This document shows positions 10,720-28,500 of a DNA stretch of 37,328 nt, in pieces; the stretch's first letter is position 1, and each line of letters begins with the position of its first letter. The notes beneath the pieces were generated by a model. That model saw only the letters and a list, made by a program, of their open reading frames with translations. It made no database searches and was not told the origin of the DNA. Both the position numbers and the translations under genes were made by a program. The DNA comes from Burkholderiaceae bacterium (GTDB taxonomy: Bacteria > Pseudomonadota > Gammaproteobacteria > Burkholderiales > Burkholderiaceae_C). The DNA lies in assembly GCA_031277295.1 (NCBI GenBank), contig JAITMV010000010.1:1-37328 (forward strand). The letters run 5' to 3'.

Positions 10720-11784
10720 GTGATAGTCGTCACCGGTGGCGCCGGCTTTATCGGCAGCAATTTCATTTTGGACTGGCTCGCGGGTAGTGACGAGCCGGTG
10801 CTCAACCTCGACAAGTTGACTTACGCCGGCAATGCGGCCAACTTAGCGGCGCTTGCGGGCGATGCGCGCCACGTCTTCGTGCGCGGCGACATCGGCGATG
10901 CGCCCTTGCTCGCGCGTCTGCTGGCCGAGTACAAGCCGCGCGCCATCATCAACTTTGCCGCCGAAAGCCATGTTGATCGCTCGATTCACGGCGCCGAGGA
11001 TTTCATCGCCACCAACATCGTCGGCACTTTCCGGCTGCTGGAGGCGGCGCGCGCTTATTGGATGGGGCTGCCTGAAGGTGAAGGCGCGCGCGCGGCGTTC
11101 CGCTTTTTGCATGTGTCCACCGATGAGGTTTATGGCTCGCTCGCGCCCGTCGCGCCCGCTTTCACTGAACGCCACCCCTACGAACCCAACAGCCCCTACA
11201 GCGCCAGCAAAGCCGCCAGCGACCATCTGGTGCGCGCTTGGCATCACACGCACGGACTGCCGGTGTTGACGACCAACTGCTCGAATAACTACGGGCCGTA
11301 TCAGTTCCCGGAAAAGCTGATTGCGCTGATGATCGTGAACGCGTTGGCAGGGGGGCCGCTGCCGGTTTATGGCGACGGCCAGCAGGTGCGCGACTGGCTC
11401 TACGTGGCCGACCATTGCAGCGCCATTCGCCGCGTGCTGGCGGCGGGGCGGGTGGGCGAGACCTACAACATCGGCGGCCACAACGAGCGCGCCAATCTGG
11501 ACATCGTGCGCGTCATCTGCGATCTGCTCGACGAATGTGCGCCGCGCGCCGACGGCGGGAGCTATCGCGCGCAAATCACCCACGTCACCGACCGCCCCGG
11601 CCATGACCGGCGCTACGCCATCGACGCGCGCAAGATCGAGCATGAACTCGGCTGGCGGCCAGCCGAAACCTTTGACACCGGCATTCGTAAAACGGTGGCC
11701 TGGTACCTGTCCCACGCCGACTGGGTGCGCGGCGTGCAAAGCGGCGCTTATCGTGATTGGGTTGCCACGCAGTACGGAGCATGA
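10720..11784 (+). CDS. rmlB: dTDP-glucose 4,6-dehydratase
   Basis: Converts dTDP-glucose to dTDP-4-keto-6-deoxyglucose, the branch point for dTDP-rhamnose and dTDP-amino sugars. The NAD-binding motif TGGAGFIG is at residues 5-12. STDEVYG (133-139) supplies the catalytic Asp135-Glu136, and the YxxxK is Y160-SAS-K164. [15 protein letters not shown]-type sequence and [10 protein letters not shown] also match. Start GTG 10720 is chosen for AAGGA 6 nt upstream and because it puts the dinucleotide motif at the N-terminus; the frame open back to 10108 overlaps the phasin gene. The product is 354 residues. It overlaps rmlD by four bases (ATGA). Confidence 0.96.
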
Positions 11785-22058: not shown

Positions 22059-22803
22059 GGTGTTCCTCCGATCGTGCTTAGCCATGCCAGCGCAGCGGCT
22101 TCGGAATCTTCGATGGCGATTTCTACGGCGCGTTTGGCGGTGGTGAGGAGCTGGGAGGCTCGGATACGATAGTTTTTAGCTTCAATAGCGATTTTTTCGC
22201 ATTTGCTCTGGCTCTCTACACTTGTCACGGGAACCCAGAATTTTCCAACATCGCGCGGGTATAAATGGAGTTGTCCAGTTGCTCCGGTGATGAACTGATC
22301 TATTTGCAACTGCCCAGCGATAGAGCGCAGGAAGGCGGCAAGGTAGTAGGGGTTGATCGTTTTTTGTCTAATTACCGTCACCTCGCTAACCGTACCGTAG
22401 GCACCGGGTTTGTCGAAAACCTGAACCTTGCCTATCGATCCGAATCCAATAGACGAAATTAAAACATCGCCGCACTGGAGCCTGAAAACAGGTTGATCCG
22501 AGCGAGTACGCAGAAGTTTTTCATCATCGTCAATATTCGATAAATCACCAGAGCGAATAATCGGTATGTCACCATCTTCAGCAAGGATTCATGGATGCCA
22601 TCCGTCACGGTCGCAAGAGCATCCAAATGCCCTGCGCCAATCGCATGAAATCGCCGAATAGCGGCAAGCGCGAGCTTCCCAAAATAATCAGCATCGAAAC
22701 GAAAGACGGTGTTATCGGTAAGAATTTCCGACAACTTGAGTTCTGCTATCTCCAGCCCCTCCAACAAGCCCTCATACCGGGCCGCGTCGAAGGGGCGGCT
22801 CAA
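22055..22803 (-). pseudogene. hsdS: Single-TRD specificity subunit (HsdS-like), frameshifted
   Basis: Reading the two frames together gives about 249 residues with one target-recognition domain. The N-terminal part ends TDGIHES. The second frame resumes EDGDIPIIRSGDLSNIDDDEKLLRTRSDQPVFRLQCGDVLISSIGFGSIGKV, followed by NPYYLAAFLRSIAGQLQIDQFITGATGQLHLYPRDV and a C-terminal coiled helix (CEKIAIEAKNYRIRASQLLTTAKRAV). The break lies near 22580-22590 and needs a -1 shift. Length is about half of a classical two-TRD HsdS, so two copies would be needed for bipartite recognition. It starts with TTG at 22803 inside a T8 run, overlapping the stop of the RM gene, and its own stop overlaps the next gene. 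Confidence 0.82.
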
Positions 22804-24803
22804 AAAAAACTTAATTTTTCCTTAGCCGCGAACTCGGCGAAGGCTTCGGCGATGCCGTCTTTCGTCAAGCCCTCGTGGTTGTACAAATCATGCTGCACCA
22901 CCCAATGCCCGTGCGCGTCGCGCAGCAAGTGCCCATCCTTATCCGTGGCAATGAGTTTGTCGCCGCTGTTGTCCTTGCTGGGCAACTGCTGGGTGGCGAA
23001 GAAGATGGGGTAATCGTCCACCTTCGGGCAGTGGTAACGCGGGTCACTGGCGTCGTCGTTCCATTTCTGCACGAGCAGTACGCTGGTTTTGGTGCCGGTG
23101 TGCGGCTTGAAGGTATTGGGGTGCAGGCCGACCACGGCGAGGATGCGGCAACGCTCGGCTAAAAACAAGCGCACGCGCTGATCGCTGGCGTTGTTGAAGC
23201 GGCCCTGCGGCAGCACCACGGCCATGCGCCCGCCGGGGCGCAGAAAATCCAGGTTGCGTTCGATGAATAGGAGGTCGCGGCCTACTTTGCTTTCCAACTT
23301 GCCGTTGGCTTTGTGGCCCAGTTCGTAGGGCGAGAGCATGTCGCTTTGCTTGATGTCGCCCGCGAAAGGCGGGTTGGCCATCAGCACGTCGAAGCCGAAG
23401 GTGCGGTTTTGGTTTTTCGGCTGGCGCAGCTTTTTCAATTTGGTCCAGCCGGGGCCGTAGGTTTCTTGCCAGTCTTCGTCATCCTGGATACGCTTGTCCC
23501 AGCGCGGGTAGTCGAGCGTGTTCAGGTGCAGGACGTTGGTCTGACCATCGCCCGCGATCAGGTTGAGGCAGCGGGCGACGCGCACGGATTTTTCGTCGAA
23601 GTCGATGGCAAAAACCTTGTCGCGCACGTAGTCCTTGCAGCGTTGCGGCTTGTCTTCCATCGTGAACAGGTGCGAGACGGGCAGCCCTTCGCTTTCGAGA
23701 ATCTGCCGCCACACATGAAAGATGGCGTGGACGGTGAAGCCGGCGCTGCCTGCCGCGGTGTCGATGACGGTTTCCGATTCGTGCGGGTTCATCATCTTCA
23801 CGCACATATCGATGACCCAGCGCGGGGTGAAATACTGGCCTTTTTCTCCCTTGGATGATTTGTTGACCAGATACTCGAAGGCGTCGTCCACCACGTCGAG
23901 ATTGGAGTTGAACAGCTTCCATTCTTCCAGCGAGCCGACGCAGACTTGCAGGTGTTCGGGGTTGAGTTTGATCTTTTCGTCAGCGGCGAAAACGCCGGGC
24001 CATTCGTTTTTGGCGTCGTCGAATAATGACTGGATGTTGGCCTTGAGCTGTGTTGCCGTGTTGCTGTTGCGAAAGCGCAGGAACTTGTGACGCTGGCGAA
24101 AGCAATACATCTCGTCGTAGAGCTTGGAAAAAACCAGCTTGAAGACTTCTTCAAAGGCATCAACGCCCGCGTTGGCGAGGACTTCATCCTCCATGTCCTC
24201 GATGAGTTGTTTTAGGCTGCGCGCGCCTTTGCCCTCGGCTTCGCGTTTGCGCTCGATCTCGATCAGGTTTTGCACCGTCCACGGCTGACCGGCCACGTCG
24301 TCGATGGTTTGTCCCGCCGTGGGAATAGCGGGAATTTCGACAAAGTAATTCGGGTTTTTGCGGTGCCAGGCAATGGCTTCCACGCCATTGCACCACAGCG
24401 CCAGCGGCGCGCCGGTGGCGTGGGTGTAGGAGCGCAGTTGTTCCTTGCCGTCCTTGAACTTGCCTTGCTTGACCTCGACGACCAGATACGGATCGGTTGG
24501 GTTGTCGTCGTCCATGACAACGATGTCGGCGCGCTTGGAGGTGTCGCGCCCGAAGGTGATGGGGTATTCGACGGCCAGGCGCGAAACGGGATATTTGAAA
24601 TGCTGATGGAGGCGATGCAGCCAAAGCTGGCGCACCAGTTCTTCGCGCTTGGCGATCACCTTCCTGTCGCGCACGAGGCAGCGCACGTAGCGCTTGCCGC
24701 CCTTGGTGGACAGGCGCGCCTGTACTTCGATGATGACGGGCTGGCCGAATAATTCGGTCAGCGCAGCGGGTTCAATGTCGTTGAGTAGCCCGAAAATTTG
24801 CAT
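22800..24803 (-). CDS. Fused nuclease-N6-adenine methyltransferase (BcgI-like or type I-derived RM protein)
   Basis: A 667-residue restriction-modification protein. Residues about 20-150 form an HsdR_N-like PD-(D/E)xK nuclease: RADIVVMD (Asp93) and YLVVEVKQGK (Glu110, Lys112). A linker and HsdM N-terminal helical domain follow. The SAM-dependent N6-adenine methylase has FTPRWVIDMCVKMMNP (325-340), the SAM loop DTAAGSAGF (348-356) and catalytic NPPF (477-480). No SF2 helicase motifs occur, so it cannot act as a translocating type I enzyme. Nuclease plus methylase in one chain with a separate S subunit resembles type IIB BcgI. It should modify adenine and cut near the site chosen by HsdS. The last codons contain a run of eight T (22802-22809) overlapping the hsdS start. 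Confidence 0.88.
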   Translation of the reverse strand: MQIFGLLNDIEPAALTELFGQPVIIEVQARLSTKGGKRYVRCLVRDRKVIAKREELVRQLWLHRLHQHFKYPVSRLAVEYPITFGRDTSKRADIVVMDDDNPTDPYLVVEVKQGKFKDGKEQLRSYTHATGAPLALWCNGVEAIAWHRKNPNYFVEIPAIPTAGQTIDDVAGQPWTVQNLIEIERKREAEGKGARSLKQLIEDMEDEVLANAGVDAFEEVFKLVFSKLYDEMYCFRQRHKFLRFRNSNTATQLKANIQSLFDDAKNEWPGVFAADEKIKLNPEHLQVCVGSLEEWKLFNSNLDVVDDAFEYLVNKSSKGEKGQYFTPRWVIDMCVKMMNPHESETVIDTAAGSAGFTVHAIFHVWRQILESEGLPVSHLFTMEDKPQRCKDYVRDKVFAIDFDEKSVRVARCLNLIAGDGQTNVLHLNTLDYPRWDKRIQDDEDWQETYGPGWTKLKKLRQPKNQNRTFGFDVLMANPPFAGDIKQSDMLSPYELGHKANGKLESKVGRDLLFIERNLDFLRPGGRMAVVLPQGRFNNASDQRVRLFLAERCRILAVVGLHPNTFKPHTGTKTSVLLVQKWNDDASDPRYHCPKVDDYPIFFATQQLPSKDNSGDKLIATDKDGHLLRDAHGHWVVQHDLYNHEGLTKDGIAEAFAEFAAKEKLSFF

Positions 24804-24825
24804 CTGGTTTTTCTCAATGAAAGAC

Positions 24826-25416
24826 TTAGGGCGGGGCGCTGGGGTGCAATTTATCCAAATTCCATTGCATGGGGTTATTGTGAATATATTCGCGCAGATG
24901 GGTTAATTCGGATTCATTGCGGATGATATGTTCCCAATAATTTCGTTGCCACAATTTTTGATTAAATGAAGGCCATGAATTTTGATGTACGCCATCGGTG
25001 TATTGTTTTGTCGCCATGGTTTTAAAACGACGCACAATTTCCGGCAGGGATAATGTTCTTGTAGGGGCAGGCCCCTGTGCCTGCCCTGTTTCGGTTGTTG
25101 GTGACGCACCTGGGCGACCACGGGGGGTCGCCCCTACACCAGAGGATGTTGTGATGGTCACGATGCCGTGGATGTGATTTGGCATGACGACAAATTTATC
25201 GACGGCGATACCGAAATAATTTCTTGGCATGTCATTCCAGACTGTCAAAACCATCCGGCCTGCATCATTCAGGCACATGACACCATCCACAATTTCACCA
25301 AACAAACAGGCCCGTTCATTCGTGCAGATTGTCAAAAAATACATTCCGGCCTGCGAGTAATCATATCCTTGCAATCGGATGCTGCGGCGATGATGAATTT
25401 TTGGGTTGTATGTCAT
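24826..25416 (-). mobile_element. REP-associated tyrosine transposase (RAYT, IS200-like Y1)
   Basis: A 196-residue Y1-transposase-like protein of the RAYT group, thought to spread REP/REPIN palindromes. It has the HUH metal motif HIHG (81-84) in VVMPNHIHGIV and the C-terminal LWQRNYWEHIIRNESELTHLREYIHNNP, which holds the candidate nucleophile tyrosines (160, 177). I chose ATG 25416 (MTYNPKIHHRRSIRLQGYDYSQ), the normal RAYT N-terminus; the longer frame to 25485 enters a repeat. Residues about 94-119 (VGATPRG... to APT) are encoded by a REPIN-like hairpin pair, a low-complexity insert between the HUH motif and the following helix. The RM genes lie downstream on the same strand. Confidence 0.88.
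25061..25138. repeat. REPIN-like double hairpin inside the RAYT gene
   Basis: The first hairpin has arms GGGCAGGC and GCCTGCCC (about 25065-25086). The second has arms GGGCGACC and GGTCGCCC (about 25112-25134). The outer ends are GTAGGGGC and GCCCCTAC (25061-25068, 25130-25137), an inverted pair. The right 62 bases (25077-25138) repeat at 25441-25502 with three differences, two of which change both sides of the same base pair (G-C to A-T) and so keep the stem. Confidence 0.85.
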
Positions 25417-25440
25417 CGTTTTATCCGGTTTTTTTGTGCC

Positions 25441-25502
25441 GTGCCTGTCCTGTTTCGGTTGTTGGTGACGCACCTGGGCGGCCACGGGGGGCCGCCCCTA
25501 CA
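25441..25502. repeat. Half REPIN next to the RAYT gene
   Basis: This 62-bp sequence matches 25077-25138 inside the RAYT gene at 59 positions and carries the hairpin GGGCGGCC-ACGGGG-GGCCGCCC. It lies between the RAYT start and the 3' end of the oxidoreductase gene. The left hairpin of the internal copy is absent here. Confidence 0.85.
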
Positions 25503-25528
25503 TCACACCGCGCGGTCAAATATCCGCC

Positions 25529-28500
25529 CTAGTCTGGCTGCGGCGGCGCTGGCGCGTCGGGGGGGTGCAGTTGCTCCATCAGCGCGTCCCAGCGGGCGCG
25601 GGCGGCTTTGAGGTGGCGCTGTTTGACGGGGCCGAAGCCTTTGATTTGTTCTGGGATGCGTGCCAGTTCTACCGCGCGGGCGTGGTTGTCGGGCGACAGC
25701 AAACTTAGCGTTTGTTCGATGTCGGCGCGGTATTGCTGGATCAGGGCGCGTTCGGTACGGCGTTGGCTGGCGCCGCCTACCGGGTCCAAGAGGGTGCCGC
25801 GCAGCCATTTGAACCGTGCCAGCAGGCGCAGCAAGGGCGTCAGGCTGGGGCGGTAGTGCTTTTTGATCAGTTGGCCGCGTTCGTCGCGCGGCGCGAAAAA
25901 CGGCGGCGCCAGGTAGTAGTGCAGGCGCCAGTCGCCCTCGAACATGGCGCCGATGCGGGCCAAAAAGGCCGGCTCGGTGTGCAGGCGGGCGACTTCGTAT
26001 TCGTCCTTGTAGGCCATTAGTTTGAACAGGCCGTGTGCGACCGCTTCGCTCAAGGCGGTTTGGCCGAGCCGGCTTTCGGCTTGCCGCACCAGGGTGACGA
26101 AGGCGCGGTAGCTTTCGGCGTAGGCGGCGTTTTGGTAGGCGGTGAGAAATTCGACCCGGCGCGCGATTACGGCGTCTAGCGTGGGGCGCGGTTTGAATTC
26201 GACCGCCTGCTCGCCGCCTACCGCCGCCAGCGCCCGCTGTACGCGCGGCCAGTCGTGCGCGGCGTGACGGCCCCATTCAAATGCGGTTTGGTTGTTTTCG
26301 GCTTCGACGGCGTTGAGTTCGATGGCGCGCAGCAGCGCCGCGCGCGTCAGCGGCAGCCAGCCTTTTTGCCAGGCGAAGCCCAGCAGCATGGGGTTGACGT
26401 AGAGGCTCTCGCCCATCAGCCGGGTGGCGACGGCGTCGGCGTCGAAGCGGGCCAAGCCTTCGTTGCCACCGGCAGCGGCGGCGTCATGTCCAAGCGCGCG
26501 GGCAATGTCGGCGGCGCAACGTTCGGCGGGGCTGAGCCAGCCGGCGTCCTTGATGAATGCCGCCGTCGGCGTGGCGTGGGTATTCAACGCCACGTGGGTG
26601 CGGCCAGCGCGCATACGCGAGAGGGTGTCCCGGTGGGCGGCAACGATGGGGTCACAGCCAATCACCAGGTCTGCCGCCGCCATGCCGACGCGGGTGGTGC
26701 AGATGTCATCCTGCGTGGCGGCGATTTGCACGTGGCTCCAGGTCGCGCTGCCTTTTTGCGCCAGACCCGCCGCGTCTTGCGTGACGATGCCCTTGCCTTC
26801 GATGTGCGCGGCCACGCCGAGCAACTGGCCGATAGTGATGACGCCGGTGCCGCCGACGCCGGCTACCACAATGCCCCAGGCGCGGCCCGGCTCGAGTTGC
26901 GGCGGTTGGGGTTCGGGCAGCGCCCCAAGGTCGCGCGGCAGGGCGGCGGCTTGCAGGCGCGTTTTCTTTTTGAAGTGGCCGCCTTCCACCGTCACCATGG
27001 CGGGGCAAAAGCCGTTCAGGCAACTGAAATCCTTGTTGCAGGTGCTCTGGTTGATGGTGCGCTTGCGGCCAAATTCGGTTTCCAGCGGTTCCACGCTCAG
27101 GCAGTTGCTTTGCACGCCGCAGTCGCCACAGCCTTCGCACACCAGTGGATTGATGATGACGCGGCGCGCCGGATCGGCCAGCGTGCCGCGTTTGCGGCGG
27201 CGGCGCTTTTCAGTGGCGCAGGTCTGGTCGTAGATGATGACCGTGACGCCCGCCACCTCGCGCAACCGGCGCTGCACGGCGTCGAGCCGGTCGCGGTGCT
27301 CGATGCGCACACCTGCGGGCAGGTTCTTGATGTTCGCGCCTTTGTACTTTTGCGGCTCGTCGGTGACGATGACGATGGCTTGCGCTCCTTCGGCGCGCAT
27401 ACTCTGCGCGATCTGAATCACCGACAGCCCGCCGGGGCGCTCGCCGACTGGCTGGCCGCCGGTCATCGCCACGGCGTCGTTGTACAGAATCTTGTAGGTG
27501 ATGTTGACGCCCGCGGCCACCGCTTGCCGCACCGCCAGCAAGCCACTGTGGAAGTAAGTTCCATCACCCAAATTGGCGAATACGTGCGAGTCGTGGCTGA
27601 ACGGCTGCTGGCCGACCCAGGGCACGCCTTCGCCGCCCATTTGTGTGAAGCCGACCGTGCGCCGCTCCATCCACAGCGCCATGAAGTGGCAGCCGATGCC
27701 GGCCATCGCTCGCGAACCCTCGGGCACATGCGTGCTGGTGTTGTGCGGGCAGCCGGAGCAAAACCACGGCTGCCGCTCGGCCCCGGCGCCAGCGGCTTGC
27801 AGCGCGCGTAGCTTGCGTTCGGCGGCGTCCAGCAGCGCCAACTGGCGGTCGAGGCGCGCTTGCACGTCGCCGTCTGTGCCCAGCTTTTTCAGCCGCCGCG
27901 CGATGGCACGCGCGATCAGCACCGGGTTTAGCTCGGCGGTGGCGCGCAGCAGCGTGTTGGTGCCGGGGTTGGCGCGCGAGCGCTCACCGCCGCGATGATT
28001 GTCGCGCCCATCGCCGTCGGCGCTGTCATGAAACTTGCCAAACACGTCGGGACGCACGTCGGCGCGCCAGTGGTACAGCTCTTCTTTCAACTGGTATTCG
28101 ATGATCGGGCGTTTTTCTTCCACCACCAAAATCTCTCGCAGCCCGGTGGCGAATTCGCGCATACCCTGCGCCTCCAGCGGCCACACCACGCTGACTTTGT
28201 GCAGGCGGACGCCGAGCTTGTGGCAGCTTGCCTCGTCCAGCCCCAGATCCAGCAGCGCCTGGCGCGTGTCGTTGTACGCCTTGCCGCTGGCGATGATCCC
28301 CAGACGGTCGTTCGGCCCGGCGATCACGTTGCGGTTCAGCCGGTTGGCGCGCACGTAGGCCAGCGCGGCATGCCACTTGTGGTGAAACAGGCGTTCTTCC
28401 TGCGCCAGCGCGGTGTCTGGCCAGCGGATGTGTACGCCACCGGGCGGCGGCTCAAAGTCTTGCGGCAGCACGATCCGCACGCGCTCGGGATCAACCTCCG

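Follow-up and report, generated by a model that had tools for sequence, protein, structure and literature searches.

A RAYT transposase gene with a REPIN-like element inside its reading frame

The gene, its in-frame element and an upstream copy

The window, by which we mean the whole 37,328-nucleotide stretch of Burkholderiaceae DNA that was analysed, holds on its minus strand a RAYT (TnpAREP) gene at 24826–25416, which opens with an ATG at 25416–25414 and encodes 196 amino acids including the methionine. Counting the residue after the methionine as the first, the HUH motif (PNHIHG) provides H80 and H82, a WQRNYWEH motif begins at residue 155, and the catalytic tyrosine is Y176 in YIHNNP. The protein matches Pfam Y1_Tnp (E 1.5e-6) and NCBIfam REP_Tyr_transpos (E 1.1e-19), the latter with 70.8 bits, under the 80-bit cut-off; all 28 sequences in an alignment of the protein with its relatives match the NCBIfam REP-associated tyrosine transposase model at E 1e-3. 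Judged by these motifs, the residues likely to serve catalysis and contact with GTAG are H80, H82, Y176, W155, Q156, E161, H162 and R165, and the five from W155 to R165 are spaced like W94, Q95, E100, H101 and R104 of the E. coli enzyme in the list given in PMC6006769. An AlphaFold2 model built from the 28 sequences has a mean pLDDT of 82.5, and the solved structure closest to it is 4er8, E. coli TnpAREP with a bound REP hairpin (E 7.3e-7), which was also the only PDB chain returned at E 0.01 by a sequence-profile search. The gene directly downstream (22800–24803, minus strand) encodes HSDR_N_2 and N6_Mtase domains. A close homologue of it (E about 1e-114) stands near the RAYT genes of L145 and L146, two related loci considered below; across the 119 loci scanned, a strong match to this restriction-modification gene was found near the RAYT in two and a weak one in L042 and L110.

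An earlier note on this DNA, made from its letters alone, had proposed that the RAYT gene carries a REPIN-like element within its own coding sequence, and the motifs, the open frame and the predicted fold bear this out. The element occupies 25061–25138 (minus strand), spans 78 nt, begins ten residues past the second histidine of the HUH motif and is read through, both hairpins and their inverted ends together, as residues 92–118. From 25138 to 25061 the minus strand reads TGTAGGGGCGACC...GGTCGCCC-linker-GGGCAGGC...GCCTGCCCCTAC, which yields two hairpins, each with a perfect 8-bp stem and a 6-nt loop, bounded on the outside by GTAG/CTAC. The first hairpin unit in the direction of the gene (25112–25137, minus strand) is formed by GTAG plus GGGCGACC pairing with GGTCGCCC around the loop CCCCGT, and the second (25061–25086, plus strand) by GTAG plus GGGCAGGC pairing with GCCTGCCC around CCCTGT; both were identified by pattern match and by folding, and the inner stems of the element are GACC and AGGC. 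When 84 nt around the element were folded as DNA, z was −2.35 for the plus and −2.95 for the minus strand, with one of 200 shuffles as good on each. In the AlphaFold2 model the insert sits between the strand at 80–87 and the helix at 123–145, and pLDDT falls below 50 at residues 91–104 and 106–111; the post-HUH loop that holds the REPIN is most likely disordered and tolerant.

A truncated copy of the element lies upstream of the RAYT start codon at 25441–25502 (minus strand), with a start-to-start spacing of 364 from the inner one. The recurrence of the right half upstream, as claimed in the earlier note, holds at 59 identical positions out of 62 (a repeat search gave 94% over 65 nt), and the copy proves to have one intact hairpin (25476–25501, stem GGCC) and a second that is cut. 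The two copies differ at 25084 (C/T), 25117 (A/G) and 25128 (T/C). Positions 25117 and 25128 form one stem pair, A-T in the gene and G-C upstream, so that two of the three differences do compensate each other and keep the stem, as had been supposed, and a single compensatory change separates the upstream GGCC from the inner GACC. Folded by itself, the upstream copy (65 nt) is unexceptional (z −1.02 and −1.33; 31 and 19 of the 200 shuffles did as well). Within 22501–28500 its hairpin at 25476–25501 stands alone as an intact GT[AG]GGGGC-tagged unit beyond the loop; further GTAGGGG or CCCCTAC heptamers occur in the window at 11175, 11193, 17274, 22346 and 35898. A chance hairpin in the gene was rejected on the folding z-scores and on the tagged hairpins of related genes, where the return of the same architecture makes an origin by chance unlikely.

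The element type within the host genome

The earlier note had named absence of the hairpin from the rest of the genome as evidence against its reading; such an absence was not found, although with a nuance. GTAG hairpins that follow the pattern GTAGGGGCRRSC..GSYYGCCC number 77 in the genome (34 on one strand and 43 on the other), and the pattern read backwards gave no match; the loop type CCC[CT]GT is found in three units, all at this locus, the other 74 having different loops. In 52 of the 77 the hairpin is GTAGGGGCAACCCTTGTGGTTGCCC (stem AACC, loop CTTGT), and seven further units have the inner AGGC 8-bp stem with the loop CTTG[TC]. Nineteen plus/minus pairs of hairpins lie within 80 nt of each other in the manner of a REPIN, the inner element included, and the hairpins are spread over contigs C1, C3, C23, C87, C91 and others. 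The pattern was present in six of ten genomes searched, with six as the next highest count, in neither of two congeners searched, and once backwards in the genome G146. The only RAYT genes found in the host genome were that of the window and a distant one on contig C177, with the motif PDHLH and neither GTAGGGG nor CCCCTAC within 3.1 kb; no RAYT matching the population of 77 hairpins was found. Such absences are soft, since the assembly is a bin of 279 contigs, 91% complete with 4% contamination. The REPIN type of the window differs from the abundant type of its host.

The RAYT core has a G+C content of 44% against 63% for the window. At E 1e-15 the protein was matched in one of 200 genomes of the family, the window's own, and at E 1e-6 in two of 100, again including its own; the second, G065, belongs to another genus of the family and contains two AGGC hairpins with the loop CCCCGT that resemble the inner element and together span 77 nt. 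On composition and on absence from the family sample, the RAYT gene was probably acquired horizontally with its REPIN. The converse, that an abundant host REP dropped into a resident RAYT gene, is unsupported: the loops are CCC[CT]GT against CTTGT in the host, and the protein occurs in one of 200 genomes. The seven host units with an AGGC stem and the pair in G065 weaken that rejection.

Hairpin DNA and encoded peptide in related genes

Related genes came from a search of 369 genomes in the class, where 25 had a match (the window's own included), and from 80 named loci, the best 80 of 477 by tblastn; in both cases the query was the full protein with its insert. Several of the seven rows of an added set, A1, were picked after REP-like loops had been seen, so the sample is biased towards inserts. 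Twelve of 116 ORF rows were dropped for missing anchors, leaving 104 tabulated; with one duplicate locus and one ORF without the loop removed, 102 distinct loops were used. Four relatives lie in viral contigs and four in plasmid records. An exact 8-mer tag is present in 78 of the 102 loops, and an exact GTAGGGGC or GCCCCTAC stands in the post-HUH loop of 79 of the 104 tabulated ORFs. A query freed of the loop found the tag in the loop of five (L142, L143, L144, L146, L159) of seven subclass-2.4-like matches with the loop covered, the window excluded and the fragment L147 left out; the untagged two were L145 and L148, the latter lacking both the loop and the next helix. In eleven distant matches of this query (L149–L158, L160) the ORF is free of the heptamer tag throughout.

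The loops vary in other ways. In L033 (GPRACPD) and L142 (GQPITGQPI) a portion of the inner REP forms in-frame tandem repeats, and short in-frame repeats also occur in the loops of L109, L121 and L123. L035 and L051 have long perfect stems with another foot (GTGGAGACGC.. and TAGATACGC..), and their RAYTs perhaps use a different guide tetranucleotide. Near the C-terminus of the frame there is a GTAGGGG tag in L144, and REP-like peptides in L114 and L043.

The two tags are concentrated in the loop: GTAGGGGC or GCCCCTAC occurs 138 times in the 12.7 kb that the loops make up and 46 times in the remaining 56 kb of stop-to-stop frames, upstream sequence included. Of the 102 loops, 84 contain a perfect stem no shorter than 7 bp, as do 24 of 197 adjacent windows of the same length; for perfect stems of 8 bp the counts are 81 and 10. 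The other 18 loops lack a 7-bp hairpin, which counts against a role as substrate. Among GTAGGGGC-tagged units, which were not chosen by pairing, the matching arm (the reverse complement of the four bases after the tag, joined to GCCC, within 26 nt) is kept in 111 of 136, whilst 1000 permutations gave a mean of 5.7 and a maximum of 13, although such counts over related loops ignore their relatedness. These units comprise 30 different stems across the 102 loops. The alternative that the earlier note named as refuting it, an insert that is an ancient conserved part of close RAYTs without hairpin potential, fails on both counts: loops differ among relatives, some of which have a short one with no tag, and most sampled loops can form the stem.

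Three further comparisons bear on whether the DNA or the peptide is kept. When the codons are randomised synonymously, the longest stem falls from a mean of 9.1 bp to one of 5.2 bp, and in 44 of the 102 loops the real stem exceeds all 60 synonymous versions. Codons were also compared in 55 pairs that have a loop peptide of at least six residues in common and a core identity of at most 0.85, no sequence being used twice; 160 of 202 codons in the shared peptides are identical, where 97 would be expected from the core; a control with core peptides gave 106 of 200. Finally, 30 pairs of loops share at least 17 nt, 27 in the same frame and three in different frames (L087/L130, 29 nt; L028/L114, 24 nt; L042/L067, 17 nt), and in 29 of the 30 the core identity is only 0.42–0.66. 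The left tag is translated as VGA 57 times and as xRG 13 times, and never in the frame that would make TAG a stop, as an open frame requires. The stem pairing, the randomisation, the codon identity and the frame differences therefore indicate that the feature which persists is the DNA hairpin and not the encoded peptide. A meaningful peptide insertion of which the hairpin is a by-product is very improbable, despite recurring loop peptides such as VGAGLKPAPT and VGATRRVAP, since identical DNA is read in different frames, stems shorten in synonymous versions and the insert peptide is disordered in the model. The comparison of related genes hence supports the suggestion of the earlier note that the hairpin is kept in DNA while the frame is kept, and would fit either of its proposed causes, selection or recent mobility.

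Movement, retention and known systems

An intact tagged hairpin lies in the loop at 67 of the 102 loci, and in 44 of these 67 there is one in the flank as well (up to about 3 kb each side, or about 1.5 kb for loci from the 369-genome set); flanks with an intact tagged hairpin occur at 13 of the 35 loci without an intact one in the loop. Loop and flank have a 4-nt stem in common at 32 of the 44 loci, against a permuted mean of 3.3 and a maximum of 9 (1000 permutations). The window falls outside these 32, because its flank stem GGCC differs from the inner GACC and AGGC. Of 108 outside units at the 44 loci, 71 lie 200–500 nt before or 100–500 nt after the loop, at the ends of the gene. Exact matches of at least 18 nt to the locus's own flank were found for 31 of the 102 loops (mean 0.48 with the flanks of other loci), which we list against the reading of the loop hairpin as a substrate. 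On a tree of the 102 cores, the left stem triplet requires 37 changes over 65 rows, where 500 shuffles gave 49 on average and at least 43, and the right one 35 over 64 rows (shuffled mean 45, minimum 41); the frame of the left tag, with 9 changes (shuffled mean 12.1, minimum 9), does not cluster clearly. As read from these sequences, hairpin type partly follows the enzyme, yet turns over often. A match of stems inside and outside despite this turnover suggests exchange between copies, or joint inheritance of recent copies; support for the tree is weak, with 55 of 99 inner branches open, and counts of this kind are inflated by relatedness.

One pair of loci separates presence from absence cleanly. 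L145 and L146, from two genomes of one genus, are identical at 1839 of 1992 aligned positions (482 of 513 in the RAYT region); L146 has a 72-nt REPIN in its post-HUH loop and L145 lacks it, without a scar and in frame. Three placements of the junction are possible, and one has C^T at both ends. The pair reflects one event, in either direction, and loss of the stretch from one CT dinucleotide to another would leave the same picture. An insert peptide like that of L146 also occurs in L084, and the more distant L143 and L144 (62% and 61% identical to the L146 query) have the right-end tag only. No further close pair with and without the element was seen among the matches listed, L161–L166 and L205–L212 left out.

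We consider it likely that the REPIN-like element, lying in a disordered loop of a probably horizontally acquired subclass 2.4 gene, is a hairpin substrate of the enzyme and able to move. Most likely, the in-frame REPIN is the substrate of the RAYT and is mobile or homogenised. In this scheme the enzyme would recognise a GTAG hairpin of this kind as single-stranded DNA and cut at a nearby C^T, and REPINs would enter, leave or be overwritten in the loop along with the flanking REP copies. Such elements would be tolerated there because they spare the protein core and their left tag can be read through in two of the three frames. TnpAREP enzymes of groups 2 and 3 cleave at CT, guided by GTAG (PMC8266576), and we infer that the C^T chemistry holds in subclass 2.4 and that the enzyme itself moves the REPINs. 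The element, its frame and its loop, the pairing across many stems, the matching of inner and flanking hairpins and the one clean presence/absence pair are direct observations; the window genome offers no amplified population showing mobility, since the element is there only twice, one copy truncated.

It is quite possible, though not what we would expect, that the REPINs are tolerated debris, landing anywhere and surviving in a dispensable loop, so that their seeming conservation reflects recent insertion. This overlaps with our preferred reading and denies the element any role. It agrees with the disorder predicted for the loop, with short untagged loops in genes with intact motifs (L056, L062, L071, L076, L145), and with intragenic REPs in unrelated genes, for which the same argument has been published (PMC3733652, PMC6006769). 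However, the 27 of 30 pairs that share a frame and the low core identity in 29 of 30 point to long retention or to re-entry at one spot, and the clustering of hairpin type on the core tree, below the minimum of all 500 shuffles, also speaks against debris. A selected cis element, either one that serves autoregulation as a binding site or an mRNA hairpin or a substrate travelling with the gene to a new host, is rather doubtful. Pairing kept through many stems, conservation at the codon level, the matching of inner and flanking stems and the likelihood that the gene arrived horizontally with the element already in it would all fit such a function, but the element is missing from several relatives, and gene conversion with flanking REPs would give equal patterns. 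A more specific proposal, which we regard as unlikely, is that the gene carries its own substrate, the inner copy acting as a template that keeps the flanking REPs matched and founding a REPIN population once the gene reaches another host; transfer of the RAYT would then bring its cognate hairpin along, because the REPIN lies in the coding sequence. If this were true, the window would capture the first stage of an invasion, with a full copy in the gene, a partial one beside it and a host full of another REP family.

RAYTs are the supposed movers of REP and REPIN repeats, and the movement is rarely caught. Because subclass 2.4 joins the enzyme to its candidate substrate, pairs such as L145/L146 and the matching of inner and flanking hairpins offer direct handles on whether the enzyme moves or rewrites REPINs, and the same handles bear on the spread of such systems between phyla.

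The window gene is a further case of a kind already described, since a RAYT gene with an in-frame REP is a published arrangement for subclass 2.4 (PMC6006769). Table 1 of that work gives for the subclass NH[IFV]H, WQ, YIxNNP and a median of 194 aa, and the same source gives a median HuH-Y distance of 88 aa, a variable insertion between beta3 and alphaC and a REP 'inserted in tnpAREP'; it assigns RAYT group 4 of Bertels et al. to this subclass, and calls the predominance of in-frame REP insertions unique to it (Quentin et al., 2018). By motifs, length and insertion the window protein fits this signature: it has NHIH (79–82), WQ (155–156), YIHNNP (176–181), 196 aa with the methionine and 96 residues from the first HUH histidine to the tyrosine (median 89, range 62–143, in 99 of the 104 sampled ORFs), and in the model its insert lies between the strand and helix that would correspond to beta3 and alphaC. 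The in-frame REP between HuH and tyrosine, a flanking REP (the one intact upstream hairpin at 25476–25501) and a GC-rich stem foot are likewise shared, and nothing essential differs from what PMC6006769 describes, apart from an element type confined to this locus in its genome.

The likeness extends to the REPINs of the GTAG REP superfamily (Bertels and Rainey, 2011, PMC3116915; PMC3733652) in the GTAG foot, the 8-bp stem and the inverted pair of hairpins, but the element of the window lies within the transposase gene rather than between genes and has two copies only. With its CCC[CT]GT loop found at this locus only in the genome and no dispersed multicopy population, it is a REPIN by anatomy, not by population. 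Rickettsia palindromic elements and the intragenic REPs described in other genes (Di Nocera et al., 2013; PMC3733652) are likewise mobile palindromic DNA translated in frame, although these occur in many unrelated host genes and that of the window in the gene of its presumed enzyme. E. coli TnpAREP (4er8), the closest fold, has the GTAG-contact residues in common with the window protein, but it is a member of subclass 2.2, where PMC6006769 shows an insertion between beta3 and alphaC to be absent from its list, and its REPs flank the gene. The evidence for the keeping of the hairpin at the DNA level, for the matching of inner and flanking stems and for the clean presence/absence pair probably goes beyond what PMC6006769 describes.
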